A stretch of DNA of 42,553 nucleotides from a bacterium (GTDB lineage: Bacteria > Patescibacteriota > Minisyncoccia > Phycocordibacterales > JAUSHB01). The stretch covers positions 75,866-118,418 of the forward strand of contig JAUSHB010000006.1 in the NCBI GenBank assembly GCA_030648955.1. The letters run 5' to 3'. Within the stretch, counting starts at the first letter, position 1. Each line of letters opens with the position of its first letter. Under the pieces are notes generated by a model. It did no database searches and was not told where the DNA came from. It saw only the letters and a program-made list of their open reading frames with translations. Shown here piece by piece: positions 4,228 through 11,233 of this stretch. A program made the position numbers and the translations under genes.

Positions 4228-4785
4228 CTATAAAAAGCCTTTAAAATCAACAAAAATAGCCATCCTTCGCCAGTACTTTTTAAAGGTTTCAATGGACACA
4301 AACTGGTCCTTCCCTTCACGTGGAGTATAGGCATCGGGATCATGATAATAGAAGCCTTTAAGAACTCCTTCATCCATCTCAAACCCCACTACAATCATCA
4401 TATGAAATTTTTTAGTCTCCACCCATTTTTTGATTGCCGATATGAGCACGGGTTTTTCTTTTTCAATGGACAAAACAAGCTCATTAATACCTTCCTTGAG
4501 AAGTTTTTTTGCTTCACGAGAATCGTGCGAGCGAAATTCTTTTCTTTCCATAGTAACCCCAAATAATGATGCAACAGAAACAAGTCCTGCGTGCGTCCAT
4601 CCCCATTCCCCATATGCACCGGCGGACATTCCCCCCTTAACAAATTCATCTGAAGAAGGTGTTTTTGCGCCGAGAAAATCAAGGACCATTTTAAGACACA
4701 GGATGCCACATGCGCGGTCTTTCCAGTGCGGATCTGAAACATCGATCTTTTGAGAGTAGTATGGAACGGCAAGAATGTTTGTCAT
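4228..4785 (-). CDS. Peptidase C39-like (papain-fold) protein
   Basis: A 185-aa protein of the C39_2/bacteriocin-processing-like cysteine-peptidase fold. It opens VPYYSQ and has the catalytic Cys in DRACGILCLKMVLDFLG (Cys about 26), then FHMMIVVGFE (His about 128) and HDPD (Asp about 149), and ends in FKKYWRRMAIFVDF. This order (Q-x-C, then H, then D/N) is the usual one. There is no signal peptide or transporter domain, so it is a stand-alone domain, possibly cytoplasmic or exported by an unknown route. It lies downstream of pheT and a small membrane protein, with 25 nt between it and the latter. Substrate is unknown. The neighbouring pheT carries a different papain-fold domain (NlpC/P60). 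Confidence 0.75.
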   Translation of the reverse strand: MTNILAVPYYSQKIDVSDPHWKDRACGILCLKMVLDFLGAKTPSSDEFVKGGMSAGAYGEWGWTHAGLVSVASLFGVTMERKEFRSHDSREAKKLLKEGINELVLSIEKEKPVLISAIKKWVETKKFHMMIVVGFEMDEGVLKGFYYHDPDAYTPREGKDQFVSIETFKKYWRRMAIFVDFKGFL

Positions 4786-4810: not shown

Positions 4811-5290
4811 TTAAAGTGCTTTTAGAAAAGTATCGGGGAGTTTGTTGTTCTTTAAATTATTCAAAACATTGTAAATATCTTTTATGGATGCAAATAAAAA
4901 ATGGTTCGGTTTTATGCGATACGGACATTCATCAATATAGATTCTAGTGCCACGATTCCATGGACCCCCAAGGTCGATGAAGTTCATCAAACCGCGAGAG
5001 AAAGCATAATTGGGTCGATCGCCACGATAATGATCATAAATCCTGATTTTTTTAGTAAGAATAGCCCCCTCAATAATATTGCATTCAAAAAAAGCAGGGT
5101 TTAAAAAAGGATATTTAAAACCATATTGTAGCGGAGAAATACCTTTTTTGTATGACAAACCAAACTCACGTGCAAGCGCTTGCAGACGACTTGAACGTAG
5201 CTTTCTTTTAAAGTAACCAAAAACAAGGAATGGTGTGCAAATTATTACACCTGTTGTGAACATAAAAATTATTATATATACATTTTCCAT
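4811..5290 (-). CDS. Membrane-anchored hypothetical protein, 159 aa
   Basis: The start is set at ATG 5290 (MENVYIIIFMF), 13 nt after the pheT stop. A longer frame from 5341 would overlap pheT. One transmembrane helix (about residues 4-25, IIIFMFTTGVIICTPFLVFGYF) is followed by a basic stretch (KRKLRSSR) and a cytoplasmic domain of about 125 residues (ALAREFGLSYKKG... RIYDHYRGDRPNY... FLFASIKDIYNVL). The positive-inside rule puts the C-terminal part in the cytoplasm. The LAREFGLSY segment recalls small uncharacterised CPR membrane proteins. It is probably co-transcribed with pheT and the C39-like gene. Function unknown. Confidence 0.65.
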   Translation of the reverse strand: MENVYIIIFMFTTGVIICTPFLVFGYFKRKLRSSRLQALAREFGLSYKKGISPLQYGFKYPFLNPAFFECNIIEGAILTKKIRIYDHYRGDRPNYAFSRGLMNFIDLGGPWNRGTRIYIDECPYRIKPNHFLFASIKDIYNVLNNLKNNKLPDTFLKAL

Positions 5291-5303
5291 ATTATTTGTC
5301 GAT

Positions 5304-7688
5304 TTATCGTACCCGCCAAGTACTTTTATTATTAAGCGCATCAGTAATATTTTGCATGATAGTATTTACTTCACCATCCGTAAGTGTTTTTTCTCCCGAT
5401 TGGAATACGAGTTGAAATGCGTATGAGATTTTTTCAATTGCTCCCGTTTCTTTGTTCTTTTTCTCAAATCGGTCAAAGAGTTTTGGTTCTCTTGCTAATA
5501 ACTCCCCTGCGTGTTCTTTTATTATCGAGGAAATATCGCCTAGTACGACCCCCGCGGGCACGAATATGGCAATATCCCGAAGTACGAACGGATAGGAAGA
5601 TATCTTTTTATAGACCGCTTCCTTTTTTGATACCTTAAGTGTGTGTTCGTACGATTTTGATTCAGGAAGCCCCGTAAGCAGTTCATCAAAATCAATCTGT
5701 GTTATTGCTTCATTCACTGAGTGTTCGCTGTGTTCTTTAAGCTTTTGTCCTAGTTCATGAGAAAGTTTCATGCATACCTTTTTTATTGCTTCAAATGCTT
5801 TGTCACCTTTGTATCCTAAAGTATTCCTAATCCCAAAAGCAAGGTGAAGGGACTCCCCCTTCTTTTCAAACACCTTTCCAATTTCAAATACTTTAACAAC
5901 ATCCACTTGGAGAAGTGGCGCGTTTTTTATGTTTATCTCAAGACTTTTCGTTAATCCATCCGAAAGGTTGCTCCGAAGAAAACCCTTATCTCCCGCAATC
6001 GGATTTTCAACAGCAACATCTCCTGTGTCTGTAAACGATGAAGTGTATATTTCAGAAAATCCTTCTTCAATCAGAATGTTTTTTATTTTATTCGTGTAAT
6101 AAAATTCCTTATTGATAGCAGGAATTTTTTCAAATTGAGGAAGTTGTTTAGGAAGAATTTTATCATAGCCGTATGCTTTTCCGATTTCCTCAACGAGGTC
6201 TTCTTTGATGCGCACATCAAGACGACAGTAAGGAACCGTGACCACAAGGCGAGGGGAAAGAGCTTCGTGTATACGGCGATACCCCATAATGTTTTTAAAC
6301 GGGGAACTTTCGGACATACTCTCCATCACCACTTTTCCTGTCGCGCGCGTGGCATGGATAACGTTTCCATTTCCCATATACAAGCCACAGTGGTCGACTC
6401 CTTCAGGAATCTTTATCCCTTTCATAAACTCAACTGTTTCGTAATATATTTTCCCTGCTCCGGTATTTGAAAACACTAGATCGCCCGGTTCTAATTCTTT
6501 CTCGCTCACTGCTTCTCCATAGGCATACTGATCCACTGCCATACGCGGGATTTGAACCCCCGCTTGTGCAAAAAGATACGCAATGAACGATGAGCAATCA
6601 AAGGCACGCGGAGCATCGTACACGATACTTGCTCCAAATTTGTACGGAACATCAATGAGTGTCGTTGCCCGTCCTAAAACTTCTTTAATGGGAGAAGAAA
6701 CGCCCCTGTGTGAGAACTCTGCACACGAGAGAATTGATGTGATTTCTCTTTCCGATATATTAGTTCCCAAAATGCGATTTACTTCTTCCGTTGAAACACC
6801 GACAACATATGGTGCGGGCTTGCGCGGATATATATCAACGACATCGCCAACCTTTGTGTCTTTTCCTCCTGCGACTTCCACAACAAGTGCTGTGATTTTC
6901 TCCATGGCTTCTTCCACACCTTCTGGTGATTGCTCGTTTTCAAATCGTTTTGATGAGTCTGTCTGGATTCCCAATCGACGAGAAGTTTTTCTGATATTTA
7001 CTGGAGAAAAATTCGCCGCTTCAAGAATGATGTTTGTCGTATCAGAATTAATTTCCGCCTTTTTACCTCCTTTGATGCCAGCAATTGCGAGTGCAGATTT
7101 CCCATCAGCAATAATGAGCGTTTCGCCATCAAGTGCGACTTCTTTCCCGTCCAGTGTAGTTATCTTTTCCCCTTTCTCCGCATTTCGCACAATGATACCA
7201 CTGTCCACCTTGAGAGCGTCGAAGGCGTGAAGTGGCTGACCAAGATCAAACATAACGAAATTTGTCGCATCAACAACATTGTTGATGGATTTTTGCCCGA
7301 TTGATTCAAGTCTTTCAATGAGCCACTGGGGCGAATGTCCGACTTTTACTCCCAGAATTTTTCTTCCAACATATCTGCGACACAAATTAGGTTCTTCAAT
7401 ACTGATAGATATGTCGTCTTCTAATTTTTCACTTTTAATTTGTAATTTTGATTTTTGATTTTTGATTTTTGAATTCAAATGAACTGAAAGTTCTTTTGCG
7501 ATGCCACGATGTGAGAGAGCATCGTGTGCTCTGTCGGGTAGAACTTTAACATCAAGAATCGCATCATTTCCCTTTTTCTCAATAGACTCGACTTCAAATG
7601 CGTGAAAAATCAAAAGCTCCGCAACTTTTTCAGGAGATGGAAGTTTTTCTTTAAAATATGATTGGAGCCAGCTATAAGAGATTAACAT
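5304..7688 (-). CDS. pheT: Phenylalanyl-tRNA synthetase beta subunit with inserted NlpC/P60 peptidase domain
   Basis: PheT forms the alpha2-beta2 PheRS that charges tRNA-Phe. The 794-aa frame has the B1 start (SWLQSYF), then passes directly from EVESIEKKGNDAIL to DVKVLPDRAHDAL, so the EMAP-like tRNA-binding domain B2 is missing. B3/B4 (RRYVGRKI...NVVDATNFVMFDLGQPLHAFDA...AIAGIKGG) is at about 105-290. The B5 domain begins at VNRILGTNISEREITSIL (303-320), is broken by about 150 residues, and resumes at LVVTVPYCRLDVRIKEDLVEEI (481-502). The inserted block (about 321-477; DNA 6258-6728) is an NlpC/P60 domain: FDCSSFIAYLF (Cys365), PGDLVF, VDHCGLYMGNG (His433), VIHAT (His445). The catalytic-like core and C-terminal FDX-ACB domain (YPFVLRDIAIFV; GEKTLTDGEV) follow. 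A low-complexity AAATCAAAA-type stretch encodes residues about 72-88. Confidence 0.93.
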   Translation of the reverse strand: MLISYSWLQSYFKEKLPSPEKVAELLIFHAFEVESIEKKGNDAILDVKVLPDRAHDALSHRGIAKELSVHLNSKIKNQKSKLQIKSEKLEDDISISIEEPNLCRRYVGRKILGVKVGHSPQWLIERLESIGQKSINNVVDATNFVMFDLGQPLHAFDALKVDSGIIVRNAEKGEKITTLDGKEVALDGETLIIADGKSALAIAGIKGGKKAEINSDTTNIILEAANFSPVNIRKTSRRLGIQTDSSKRFENEQSPEGVEEAMEKITALVVEVAGGKDTKVGDVVDIYPRKPAPYVVGVSTEEVNRILGTNISEREITSILSCAEFSHRGVSSPIKEVLGRATTLIDVPYKFGASIVYDAPRAFDCSSFIAYLFAQAGVQIPRMAVDQYAYGEAVSEKELEPGDLVFSNTGAGKIYYETVEFMKGIKIPEGVDHCGLYMGNGNVIHATRATGKVVMESMSESSPFKNIMGYRRIHEALSPRLVVTVPYCRLDVRIKEDLVEEIGKAYGYDKILPKQLPQFEKIPAINKEFYYTNKIKNILIEEGFSEIYTSSFTDTGDVAVENPIAGDKGFLRSNLSDGLTKSLEINIKNAPLLQVDVVKVFEIGKVFEKKGESLHLAFGIRNTLGYKGDKAFEAIKKVCMKLSHELGQKLKEHSEHSVNEAITQIDFDELLTGLPESKSYEHTLKVSKKEAVYKKISSYPFVLRDIAIFVPAGVVLGDISSIIKEHAGELLAREPKLFDRFEKKNKETGAIEKISYAFQLVFQSGEKTLTDGEVNTIMQNITDALNNKSTWRVR

Positions 7689-7689
7689 C

Positions 7690-8079
7690 TTAGTTTATTG
7701 GTTTTTTTGTTGATATGTTTGTTGGTTTTTGCTCCTTAACGAATCGTATATAACCACTCACCATTTTCAAAAGCGATAAATATTTTTCGGGGATTTCCCT
7801 GTCATTGTGAAATCCTTTTTTGAGACAAATTTCCAAATTTTTGCGTGTTTCTTCTGCTTCCCCTTTCACAATATCGTTAAGAATTCGCACTTTTTCTTTT
7901 ATAGAACGTTTATGGTACGACTCGGCGATATTATTGGAAACAGACGCTGAAGACCTTCGTAACTGATCGGTGCTTCGATATATTTCATCATGTGGAAATT
8001 TTTTTGTTAGATGAAATACCTCAACTTCAAGCTCTGCTGCAAGTTTATAAATATTCAAATTTTCAAGTCCTGTTGCCAT
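7690..8079 (-). CDS. Four-helix-bundle protein (23S rRNA intervening-sequence type), copy 1
   Basis: A 129-aa member of the S23/IVP four-helix-bundle family (TIGR02436-like). The signature is visible as LAAELEVEVFHLTKKFPHDE, then DQLRRSSASVSNNIAESYHK, then a long amphipathic helix. IVPs are encoded inside intervening sequences of some bacterial 23S rRNA genes, and relatives (Avd) assist diversity-generating retroelements; the cellular role of stand-alone copies is unknown. It sits between pheS and pheT and is bounded exactly by 36-bp imperfect inverted repeats. Its last residues (ISTKKPIN) are encoded by the left arm. The gap to pheT is 1 nt. Two more copies occur in the window. Confidence 0.88.
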   Translation of the reverse strand: MATGLENLNIYKLAAELEVEVFHLTKKFPHDEIYRSTDQLRRSSASVSNNIAESYHKRSIKEKVRILNDIVKGEAEETRKNLEICLKKGFHNDREIPEKYLSLLKMVSGYIRFVKEQKPTNISTKKPIN

Positions 8080-8121
8080 ATATAACTAATAAACTTATCA
8101 ACTTTAAAACTGACAAACTAA
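7690..8121. repeat. IVP element 1: terminal inverted repeats around four-helix-bundle gene
   Basis: Left arm 7690-7725 and right arm 8086-8121 are inverted copies: 27 of 36 positions match without gaps. Both begin TTAGTTT and share GTTGATA. The element fills the whole pheS-pheT junction. The right arm carries the last codons and stop of pheS, and the left arm carries the last codons and stop of the four-helix-bundle gene. Confidence 0.7.
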
Positions 8122-8928
8122 TCTCAAGTCTCCCGAATACAGAAGGCGGACATCATCAATGCCGTATTTGTTCATTACCAATCGATCAACACCCATACCA
8201 AATGCAAAGCCTTGCCACTGCCGAGGATCAATACCGGCGTTTTTTAAAACATTCGGATGCACCATCCCTGCGCCCATGACCTCGATAAAACCGGTTTGTT
8301 TGCACAAGTTACAGCCTGCCTGCGCCGCGGAGTTGTGCGACGCGGCAAGCAGGCCCTTCCCCGCACACTTAAAACACAATACATCGATCTCAACACCTGG
8401 CTCGACGAATGGGAAAAAACTTGGACGAAATCGTATTGTGCTTTTTTCTCCAAAAAGTTTTTTAAAGAAAAGTTCAAGCGTTCCCTTAAGATGCGCGAGA
8501 GAAATGTCTTTCCCGACGACAAGCCCTTCAATCTGGTAGAATTGCACCTCGTGCGTTGCATCTGTTGCTTCATGTCGAAACACACGACCGGGCACCACGA
8601 TCGCGAAGGGGGGCTTATTCTGCTCCATATAATGAACCTGCACTGCCGACGTATGTGTGCGAAGCACTGTTTCCTTAACGCCCTTGAGCCAAAAGGTATC
8701 CTGCATGTCTCGCGAAGAGTGGTCCTTGGGGACATTGAGAACATCAAAATTGTAGTATTCGCTCTCTATTTCAGGGCCTTCCGCAACCTCAAATCCCAGA
8801 GAAGAAAAAATAGATACTATTTCACGTAACGTGGTGGTCAAGGGGTGCAGGTGTCCTGCCTGCGCCGCGGAGCCATGCGACGCGGCAGGCAGGCCTTGGG
8901 AAACTTCTATTGGAGAGATGTTCTTCAT
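8104..8928 (-). CDS. pheS: Phenylalanyl-tRNA synthetase alpha subunit with two inserted palindromic peptides
   Basis: PheS holds the class II aminoacylation site of PheRS. The start is ATG 8928 (MKNISPIEV, 274 aa), because a TATAAT box ends 6 nt upstream. The N-terminal coiled-coil tRNA arm of full-length PheS is absent, as the protein starts near the HLHPL motif. Class II motifs are present: FEVAEGPEIE, DTFWL, LRTHTSAVQ, RVFRHEATDATHEVQFYQIEG, FRPSFFPFVEPGVEID, and GAGMVHPNVLKNAGID with GFAFGMGVDRLVM. Two GC-rich palindromes add in-frame peptides: GLPAASHGSAAQAG just before HLHPL, and LLAASHNSAAQAG between CFKCAGKG and CNLC, splitting the zinc knuckle that is normally CxxC-GKG-CxxC. It is separated from pheT by IVP element 1. 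Confidence 0.93.
   Translation of the reverse strand: MKNISPIEVSQGLPAASHGSAAQAGHLHPLTTTLREIVSIFSSLGFEVAEGPEIESEYYNFDVLNVPKDHSSRDMQDTFWLKGVKETVLRTHTSAVQVHYMEQNKPPFAIVVPGRVFRHEATDATHEVQFYQIEGLVVGKDISLAHLKGTLELFFKKLFGEKSTIRFRPSFFPFVEPGVEIDVLCFKCAGKGLLAASHNSAAQAGCNLCKQTGFIEVMGAGMVHPNVLKNAGIDPRQWQGFAFGMGVDRLVMNKYGIDDVRLLYSGDLRLVCQF
8314..8354. repeat. GC-rich palindromic insert in pheS zinc knuckle
   Basis: A 41-bp imperfect palindrome (GCCTGCCTGCGCCGCG against CGCGGCAAGCAGGC, 2-nt bulge) lies in frame in pheS. It encodes LLAASHNSAAQAG between the two CxxC pairs. Its composition is far more GC-rich than the surrounding gene. Confidence 0.8.
8855..8893. repeat. GC-rich palindromic insert near pheS N-terminus
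   Basis: A 39-bp relative of the copy at 8314 (CCTGCCTGCGCCGCG against CGCGGCAGGCAGG). It is in frame and encodes GLPAASHGSAAQAG directly before the conserved HLHPL of PheS. Confidence 0.8.
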
Positions 8929-9033: not shown

Positions 9034-9651
9034 CTACTCTTTATCAGCAAATATCACGAGACGCTTGGAATAACTTTTGGAAACATTATCCCACACTCCT
9101 TCACAGGTAATGAGGTTAAGGTGTGATTTCCCATCATTTGAGATAAATACGCCTGAAGCGTCCGCCTCGGGGTCATACCTTCGGCTTTCACGCATCACAA
9201 AGGAAGTGGTCACACCCTTATCGTCTTCAACATATAGCTTATCGCCCTTGCGTAATTTATATAAATTATCAAATGCCGATGCTTTCCCGTTTTTCCATCC
9301 ATAGTGTCCGGCAAGAACCGCACTGCCATTCTCCCCAGGACGCGACCCGGGATTAAACCACGCTACATTACTCGCGGTTTTTGGTATATCCATTGCTCCA
9401 TCGGGCGTAAGGCCAACATACTCGACAGTAGCGTCAACATTAATCCTTGGAATCTTAAGACGCACCGGCAGCCCAAGATTCATTTTTCCTTGTTCATTAA
9501 AAGCGGTGGTACCTGCAGTAAGCGGTATCAAGTCGCTCTGAATTGAACTTTTTAGGATAGCGTGAAAAATAAGTTCCAGAGAAAGTAAAAGGCCTGCGAG
9601 ACTGACTAATACCAGTATTCGGCGGGTTAATAAAATTTTTGGGAAATTCAT
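9034..9651 (-). CDS. Sortase (class D/E/F-like transpeptidase)
   Basis: A 205-aa membrane-anchored sortase. The N-terminal helix (about residues 11-33, RILVLVSLAGLLLSLELIFHAIL) anchors it with the catalytic domain outside. The beta-barrel carries LKIPRINVDATVEYVG, the His in LAGHYG (H116), the Cys in LITCEG (C183) and the Arg in YSKRLVIFA (R197), which together make the sortase triad. The DIPKTASNVAWFNPGSRPGENGSAVLAGH segment is like class F/E enzymes. It lies just downstream of a DUF3494 gene whose product ends in LPNTG, a hydrophobic segment and a basic tail. This is a likely enzyme-substrate pair that anchors the surface protein to peptidoglycan or another acceptor. Confidence 0.9.
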   Translation of the reverse strand: MNFPKILLTRRILVLVSLAGLLLSLELIFHAILKSSIQSDLIPLTAGTTAFNEQGKMNLGLPVRLKIPRINVDATVEYVGLTPDGAMDIPKTASNVAWFNPGSRPGENGSAVLAGHYGWKNGKASAFDNLYKLRKGDKLYVEDDKGVTTSFVMRESRRYDPEADASGVFISNDGKSHLNLITCEGVWDNVSKSYSKRLVIFADKE

Positions 9652-9873: not shown

Positions 9874-11193
9874 TCAAATTCCCCATTTCTTTTGAACTAG
9901 ATAGAATGAGAATAGGGCAATGGAAATTATAGTTGGGATAACAGTATTCCATGGAATATTGTTCCCTTCAGCTTCAGGGGGAAGCCCTGTATTAGGAAGA
10001 CTCGGGGCGAAAGAACTTTGTTGTGCTACCTGTTGTGCTTGGAGCGACTGTACGGTCGCTAATAATCCGTTGAGTTTGGTCTGTAAAGCAATAATATTAG
10101 TATCTGATGATGTTGGCGAAGTCGGAGTTGCCTGCCCTCCACCTGTCGAAGGAGGTGTTGGTTGTGTCGGTGGAATCGTAACAACATTAACATTGCAACT
10201 TCCACTTAAAGAAGCAGAGGTAACCGTAACCGTGAATGCTCCCCAATTATTGTAAAGAGAGGTAAACGTTGTTCCGACACCTGAAGACGGAGAAGCTCCC
10301 GGAGCAGACCAACTGAATATACCATTACCACCAGAGGCACTAAAAATAGCACTTGTTCCCATTGGAATATTGCCGACTGAACCATTTGTAAGAACACAAC
10401 TTGTAGAAGTTGGGGCTGGTGTCGGAGCTATGGTAGTTGGCTTGGTAACAGCGCTTGAATCGAGCGTAACTGCGGTCTGTGCGAACGCGCGACCGTTGAG
10501 TCGTGCACCAGTGTTGAGCACAATCGCTGTTTGATCTAATATAGTTCCATTAAAGACAGATGTTGTTCCCAGTGTTGTTTGACCGACAACCTGCCAGAAG
10601 ATGTTAGCAGCCTGTGCGCCACCGGTGAGAATTACTTTCGTAGCGGAACTCACGGTGAGATTTTGTGCAATCTGGAAGATCCAGACATCATTTGCACCAC
10701 CAGAGAGCGTGACATCTGTTGGTATGGTGACGCCAGTACTCCATTTATAAAGTCCCGGAGCGAGTGTCATCCCACCAATATTCCCAGCACCTAATTCCGT
10801 CGACGTTGGATTTGTTCTTCCCGCGGCGTCAGTGTACGCAGTTTGCATATCGCTTACCGCAGTGGTCATGGTAGTTGGGGTAGGAGGCGTATAGTCGGCT
10901 GCATATACTTTTCCGATTACTTGAGCTGACGTCGAAAATGTATTTGAAACATCCATTATTAATCCAAATCCAGTTATGGCACTTGCGGCAATTGGACTCA
11001 CTCCAATATCTCCGGTAATTGAAGTTGACCCGGTAGTTGAAATTCCTGACTTTGTGAGAATCACAAAATTACCCGCTGATCCAAGAACAACTCCTGCTGG
11101 ACCGGCTGCGAGCGTAGTAATCGGCCCAGTGAGACCGAGCACGAGGAAAATAGCTAATGCGGTTACCATTGAATTCTTATTATTTTTTCTCAT
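9874..11193 (-). CDS. DUF3494 (ice-binding-like) surface protein with LPNTG sorting signal
   Basis: A 439-aa secreted protein; start ATG 11193 (MRKNNKNSM) is preferred over an upstream in-frame TTG. The signal peptide covers about residues 1-30 (MVTALAIFLVLGLTGPITTLAA). The next 230 residues are a DUF3494 beta-helix: GSAGNFVILTKSGISTTGST, ITGDIGVSP, TAYTDAAGR, GVTIPTDVTLSGGANDVWIF, ANIFWQVVGQTTLGTTSVFNGTIL. An Ig/PKD-like stretch (NGSVGNIPMGTSAIFSASGGNGIFSW) and a Pro/Thr linker follow. The end is LPNTG (about 399-403), a hydrophobic helix and QKKWGI, a classical sortase signal. DUF3494 proteins include ice-binding adhesins, but many have other or unknown ligands, so an adhesin role is inferred. 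The sortase gene is the next gene downstream. Confidence 0.9.
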   Translation of the reverse strand: MRKNNKNSMVTALAIFLVLGLTGPITTLAAGPAGVVLGSAGNFVILTKSGISTTGSTSITGDIGVSPIAASAITGFGLIMDVSNTFSTSAQVIGKVYAADYTPPTPTTMTTAVSDMQTAYTDAAGRTNPTSTELGAGNIGGMTLAPGLYKWSTGVTIPTDVTLSGGANDVWIFQIAQNLTVSSATKVILTGGAQAANIFWQVVGQTTLGTTSVFNGTILDQTAIVLNTGARLNGRAFAQTAVTLDSSAVTKPTTIAPTPAPTSTSCVLTNGSVGNIPMGTSAIFSASGGNGIFSWSAPGASPSSGVGTTFTSLYNNWGAFTVTVTSASLSGSCNVNVVTIPPTQPTPPSTGGGQATPTSPTSSDTNIIALQTKLNGLLATVQSLQAQQVAQQSSFAPSLPNTGLPPEAEGNNIPWNTVIPTIISIALFSFYLVQKKWGI

Positions 11194-11233
11194 GTGTATG
11201 ATATTTTTTATCAAATATAATCGACTTTTATAA

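Follow-up and report, generated by a model that had tools for sequence, protein, structure and literature searches.

The phenylalanyl-tRNA synthetase (PheRS) of a bacterium of the order Phycocordibacterales (phylum Patescibacteriota) carries an NlpC/P60 cysteine peptidase domain embedded in its beta subunit. The corresponding gene, pheT, lies in a stretch of 42,553 nucleotides of contig JAUSHB010000006.1, hereafter called the window. We are practically certain that this fusion is a genuine gene architecture, and the embedded domain is predicted with high confidence to be an active hydrolase. It is moreover well supported that the domain, a C39-like peptidase encoded nearby and PheRS form one functional module.

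The reading frame of pheT starts with ATG and runs through 794 codons without interruption. Pfam recognises in it, in this order, B3/4, NLPC_P60, the C-terminal half of B5 (residues 478-508), CLM (512-648) and FDX-ACB (Table 1). The NLPC_P60 match (PF00877) covers profile positions 2-105 of 105 and scores 74 bits for a cut-off of 23, while the NCBIfam model pheT_bact (TIGR00472) scores 432.4 bits for a cut-off of 402.65; pheS lies upstream. The open reading frame (ORF), Pfam and NCBIfam thus agree on the continuous PheRS beta frame with a complete NlpC/P60 domain that had been described in an earlier note, made from the letters of the window. The B2/EMAP domain is missing from the window PheT as well as from the PheT proteins of the same order, and the family model does not require it. 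Since the plain PheT proteins of relatives, which lack the peptidase domain, align straight across the gap, the insert can be delimited to about residues 332-478, within a single loop of B5; B5 is indeed broken and resumed around it, as the note had proposed. The three catalytic residues stand in the motifs named there (Cys365 in FDCSSF, His433 in VDHCGLYMG, His445 in VIHAT), and all three are invariant in 37 distinct aligned fusions.

Full-length, co-linear fusions were found in 13 of 59 relatives of the same order, each taken from a different family, with 42-61% identity, and in seven separately deposited public records (L033-L039). The nearest of these, L033, comes from a Patescibacteria group bacterium and is 59% identical; L038 comes from a Candidatus Yonathbacteria. 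Among 397 genomes of the order, a hand count gives about 69, from 29 families, in which the fused frame is open over at least 756 amino acids (aa). Within the class, further orders have fusions too; beyond it, the phylum includes classes with a fused PheT of 929-970 aa, which by length and alignment keeps B2 and carries NlpC at the same position of B5. As to the comparison of breakpoints across genomes that the earlier note had called for, dozens of independent genomes have a single breakpoint in common. With 21 contigs, the draft of the source genome could raise the suspicion of an assembly or binning chimera; this is refuted by the co-linear fusions of relatives, by the public records and by the position of pheT in the interior of its contig (C6), and we regard a chimera as next to impossible.

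The insert is conserved as much as the editing domain: the mean pairwise identity is 0.50 for NlpC and 0.53 for B3/4, compared with 0.33 for CLM. In the AlphaFold2 model of the window PheT (mean predicted local distance difference test 90.3, predicted template-modelling score 0.72) it folds as a compact domain, with weak loops at residues 351-360 and 411-420. Foldseek matches the whole model to the PheRS beta subunit 1pys_B (E 1.8e-51) and its NlpC part to the catalytic domain of a Clostridioides difficile autolysin, 7cfl_B, at a template-modelling (TM) score of 0.90 on the target and 1.6 A. The loops preceding the catalytic Cys and the first His are longer than in 7cfl, and the pocket would therefore be reshaped. 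Tyr349, Asp364 and Ser366 of the usual NlpC/P60 motif are mostly kept; Asp364 varies, being replaced by Asn in fusions and by Ser or Glu in free-standing forms of the domain. These free-standing forms begin at a B5 half or at the NlpC domain itself. No export signal or wall-binding domain was seen: the fused domain is embedded in PheT, the free-standing forms show no signal peptide on inspection by eye, and a domain search gave no SH3b match in the window PheT. The remark of the earlier note that a domain of wall-hydrolase type is unexpected in a cytosolic synthetase is supported.

The second peptidase gene of the window codes for a C39-like protein (PF13529, 38.3 bits for a cut-off of 24) and is separated from pheT by one small ORF. 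Reading gene neighbourhoods in windows of about 4-12 kb, we found such a gene downstream of pheT on the same strand at 21 of 36 distinct fused loci, within 125 bases at 18 of them and often overlapping. At loci with at least 600 bases of downstream sequence it is present at 20/32 fused pheT genes and at 0/45 plain ones. Counted by genomes, it occurs in 10 of 14 fused genomes and in one of 46 other relatives; this sole non-fused genome (G020) belongs to a family which includes a fused member (G100). Gln12, Cys26 and His128 are invariant and Asp149 nearly so in 22 C39-like proteins, and the model has a papain fold whose nearest structures are the peptidase domains of PCAT and ComA, and Alr0975.

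The association outlives PheT. In part of the genomes of the order, PheS-PheT is replaced by a single-chain PheRS (tRNA-synt_2d and FDX-ACB), which consists of the catalytic core and FDX-ACB and lacks the B3/4 editing domain. One of these genomes (G049) and six others encode the B5-NlpC-B5 block as a gene of its own, coupled to this synthetase. The coupling of the free-standing B5-NlpC is start-to-stop in L102 and L140-L145, while the two genes are adjacent and divergent in L147, L148 and L150. The PheRS-linked free-standing forms are nested at two separate places within the fused clade of the NlpC tree; the survival of NlpC after the loss of PheT has therefore arisen at least twice. Their triad is intact in most cases. 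A C39-like gene follows the free-standing NlpC as well (L141-L145, L147), the order nlpC, single-chain pheRS, c39 is found in L169 and L175, and L184 and L187 have nlpC-c39 pairs without PheRS. The same partners thus come back in more than one physical arrangement and outlast the replacement of the synthetase, which is why we consider them to be one module; its functional link to PheRS is likely.

In other orders, NlpC proteins of 142-201 aa that lack B5 and show no evident signal peptide adjoin PheRS. They lie upstream of the single-chain PheRS gene and overlap it in L169, L172 and L175, are divergent from PheRS in L180, near PheS-PheT in L176 and L181, and 2.3 kb away in L183. A small NlpC is coupled to PheRS in L158, from the order of the window, and one family, f78, also has a small NlpC without B5 beside PheRS. 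Outside the order, the link is seen in 4 of the 11 families sampled (f125, f151, f168, f169), for which a simple model gives a chance of about 2e-6. Five of the small loci without PheRS (L173, L178, L174, L171, L187) have as neighbours SerRS, IF-2 with a class II synthetase, GatA-type amidases, and IF-2. We looked for a common neighbour rule in the unlinked loci and rejected it: the translation genes are scattered and follow no single rule, and such neighbours are frequent by chance in reduced genomes.

As to the history of the fusion, the NlpC tree gathers the inserts of the main fused group in a single clade. When the insert is left out, a tree of PheT mixes fused proteins with plain ones and requires at least five changes. 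For the main fused group, this is most simply explained by a single ancient insertion that was later lost many times. Outside this clade fall L207 and the fusions of other classes, in a tree whose outgroups are long-branched, and additional independent insertions are therefore possible.

We propose that B5 serves as a tether which would hold an active cytosolic cysteine hydrolase on PheRS, and that the NlpC and C39-like enzymes would cut a small cytosolic peptide or an aminoacyl adduct, its breakdown being coupled to the use of phenylalanine. We judge this picture of a PheRS-linked pair of hydrolases to be about evenly poised between right and wrong; the class of substrate, a short peptide or an aminoacyl adduct, is put forward more tentatively. 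In the version that we favour, the substrates would be short peptides, either imported or misformed, among them unusual ones with gamma or D linkages; their hydrolysis would take place beside PheRS, which uses up the amino acid set free, and the C39-like enzyme would make the preceding or the following cut. We infer from two papain-fold enzymes being in one operon that a peptide-like substrate is a better fit than a simple ester. It is also possible, though we would rather doubt it, that the cysteine hydrolase of PheRS, perhaps as an acyl transferase, carries out with its C39-like partner a new reaction on Phe-tRNA-Phe or on a product containing Phe.

Several observations weigh against this proposal. 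The NlpC domain was lost many times from PheT and is hence dispensable. In L141 and L143, Gln replaces the second His, so that these copies may be inactive. G049 has NlpC and a single-chain PheRS yet no C39-like gene, and 12 of the 20 sampled loci of the small type have no PheRS nearby. An Opp-type peptide-binding protein, present in 26 of 28 genomes, would suit the proposal but does not discriminate, because unfused genomes have Opp too. Nothing in the sequence singles out peptides containing phenylalanine. Finally, our statistics treat related genomes as independent.

The main rival is a quality control of aminoacyl-tRNA, in which NlpC would hydrolyse the ester or the blocked amide of wrongly charged tRNA-Phe not handled by B3/4 (D-Phe, N-blocked or oxidised Phe, or peptidyl-tRNA), the fused domain acting in cis and the free-standing one in trans. 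It would account for two unrelated PheRS types being linked, physically or by operon, to NlpC; a trans factor would be useful to the single-chain PheRS, since the latter has no B3/4; and SerRS, IF-2 or GatA-type genes are neighbours of some unlinked members. None of 30 genomes tested has the D-aminoacyl-tRNA deacylase DTD; this would suit the explanation, but the enzyme is equally absent from those without the NlpC domain, and we rejected NlpC as a replacement of DTD. Most fused PheT proteins retain their editing residues, the C39-like peptidase is left unexplained, and NlpC/P60 proteins are known as amide hydrolases, so that the hydrolysis of a tRNA ester would be new. On balance we hold quality control to be rather unlikely. 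A replacement of Tyr editing in particular is unlikely. His261 and Glu334 of the Thermus enzyme take part in editing (PMC3275996); Asn250, His261 and Glu334 correspond to Asn143, His154 and Glu223 of the window PheT. In fused PheT proteins His261 (Thermus numbering) is invariant and Glu334 mostly kept, being lost in one clade irrespective of the insert. The Tyr-editing site is intact, and the NlpC insert therefore does not replace editing.

Cytosolic muropeptide recycling comes third: the domain would be a YkfC-like gamma-D-Glu-diamino-acid peptidase, located in PheT by an accident of genome packing. A signal-less NlpC/P60 performs this task in Chlamydia trachomatis (PMC9928106), peptidoglycan hydrolases are the nearest solved relatives of our domain, and the retention of Tyr349, Asp364 and Ser366 speaks in the same sense. 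However, the link is repeatedly to PheRS and not to wall genes, in several families; SH3b, whose residues help form the S2 site of YkfC (PMC9928106), is lacking; the substitutions of Asp364 and the longer loops do not fit either; and the LD-carboxypeptidase LdcA is absent from 14 of 14 fused genomes tested, on which ground we rejected classical recycling. We consider this explanation improbable. Still less probable is a passenger or structural element which only stabilises PheT or binds a partner. The repeated loss of the domain while PheT is kept would be expected of such an element, and aminoacyl-tRNA synthetases often bear added binding domains. Yet the three catalytic residues do not vary among 37 fusions whose identity is about 50%, and the module lives on as a protein of its own once PheT is lost; a pure scaffold, which the earlier note had listed among its options, is unlikely for these reasons. 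What stands of that interpretation is the architecture, the intact triad and the oddity of such a domain in a cytosolic synthetase; the functions suggested there had been offered as possibilities, of which a scaffold is unlikely, as is a replacement of Tyr editing. The C39-like partner gene, the free-standing forms beside single-chain PheRS and the spread across classes go beyond what the note described.

Compared with known systems, the window protein has the B1, B3/4, B5, CLM and FDX-ACB order and the editing His and Glu of bacterial PheT (TIGR00472; Thermus thermophilus 1pys_B), from which it differs by the absence of B2/EMAP and by the 147-residue peptidase domain inside B5. With NlpC/P60 hydrolases (MEROPS C40) such as C. 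difficile Acd24020 (7cfl), MepS/Spr and CwlO it shares the fold and the Cys-His-His motifs; unlike these peptidoglycan hydrolases, it has no signal peptide, belongs to a cytosolic synthetase, has the longer loops before Cys and first His, and shows CSS in place of CSG. YkfC of Bacillus and Chlamydia (PMC9928106) is likewise a signal-less cytosolic NlpC/P60, and the Chlamydia genome is also reduced; our insert differs in having no SH3b, in its link to PheRS, and in the absence of LdcA from the fused genomes tested. The C39-like protein shares the papain fold and the Gln/Cys/His/Asp residues of known peptidases (PF13529; ComA, PCAT; the phytochelatin-synthase-like Alr0975, 2bu3), whereas its gene is free-standing and tied to pheT and its structural matches have at most about 20% identity. 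Hydrolases inserted in or appended to synthetases exist, such as ProRS INS and PheRS B3/4, and in this they resemble our fusion. To our knowledge, the hydrolases known in aminoacyl-tRNA synthetases are editing folds acting on aminoacyl-tRNA, none being a cysteine peptidase. We found no relevant paper in the open-licence library searched on PheRS with NlpC or on PheRS in Patescibacteria, nor any on a single-chain PheRS in Patescibacteria/CPR.

Some further observations concern the same proteins. In one PheT clade Glu334 is replaced by Ser, and Ala by Cys two residues further on; it comprises fused proteins (L036, L117, L123, L136, L139, L009, L013, L128) and a plain one (L025), and the substitutions suggest that its editing specificity may be altered independently of the insert. 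A PheT of about 432 aa without the entire B3/4, retaining B1, B5, CLM and FDX-ACB, is found at L106:2420-3715, L078:4965-6260 and L082:4947-6254. The single-chain PheRS, which is of mitochondrial type, replaces PheS-PheT in many genomes of the order (L102:3738-4886, L107:3074-4210, L108:2815-3969, L109:1705-2922 and others). A separate family of free-standing NlpC starting with YRAVGNRCAV, with apparently B5-like flanks, is not linked to PheRS and occurs in several classes of the phylum (L103:1977-2639, L104:1995-2603, L146, L149, L151, L154, L156, L157, L182, L201-L205). The free-standing B5-NlpC of family f71 (L152:3026-6486, L153:2246-5720) lies between CAP-domain and VanW genes, near a glycosyltransferase 4 gene, a neighbourhood different from that of the PheRS-linked copies.

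In the window, a gene for a four-helix protein of the 23S rRNA intervening-sequence type stands between pheS and pheT and is probably a passenger; the ORF between pheT and the C39-like gene is probably a local addition. Upstream of pheS are a sortase gene (9034-9651) and an ice-binding-like gene (9874-11214).

Table 1. Genes, domains and catalytic codons of the pheT region, in positions of the window
Feature	Position	Strand	Evidence and remarks
C39-like papain-fold peptidase, 185 aa; Gln12, Cys26, His128, Asp149	4228..4785	-	PF13529 E 2.5e-9
Small ORF between pheT and C39-like gene, 176 aa, no trusted family	4811..5341	-	Absent there in most relatives
pheT with embedded NlpC/P60 domain	5304..7688	-	794 aa plus stop; continuous ORF; Pfam and NCBIfam domains
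CLM (from residue 512) and FDX-ACB anticodon-binding domain (697-794)	5307..6155	-	PF17759, PF03147
B5 C-terminal half, residues 479-508	6165..6254	-	PF03484 positions 37-67; alignment
NlpC/P60 insert, residues 332-478 (Pfam domain 347-472)	6255..6695	-	PF00877 E 9e-21; Foldseek 7cfl_B TM 0.90
Codon of catalytic His445	6354..6356	-	Invariant, 37 fusions
Codon of catalytic His433	6390..6392	-	Invariant, 37 fusions
Codon of catalytic Cys365	6594..6596	-	Invariant, 37 fusions
B5 N-terminal half, residues 296-331	6696..6803	-	Plain-PheT alignment; model helices 300-307, 313-322, strand 326-330
B3/4 editing domain, residues 103-274	6867..7382	-	PF03483 E 1.7e-63; His154 and Glu223 present
B1 part, residues 1-41	7566..7688	-	B2/EMAP missing after B1; PDB alignment passes from Thermus residue 37 to 152
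23S rRNA intervening-sequence-type protein	7690..8079	-	PF05635 E 3e-22
pheS, PheRS alpha subunit	8104..8928	-	PF01409 E 8e-97, TIGR00468; start probably internal ATG at 8928

Aminoacyl-tRNA synthetases are among the best-studied enzymes. Patescibacteria are gene-poor and difficult to cultivate, and many aspects of their biology lack an explanation. The pairing of PheRS-NlpC with a second peptidase, found often in these bacteria, suggests an undescribed reaction tied to phenylalanine-tRNA synthesis, and a conserved cysteine peptidase kept beside PheRS even after the synthetase has been exchanged points to a hitherto unrecognised chemical need linked to phenylalanine charging. The two proteins offer a defined and testable pair of enzymes with clear predicted catalytic residues. 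If the cysteine hydrolase and its C39-like partner do act on Phe-tRNA-Phe or on a product containing Phe, a pair of proteases would be a standing accessory of tRNA charging in several classes of Patescibacteria.
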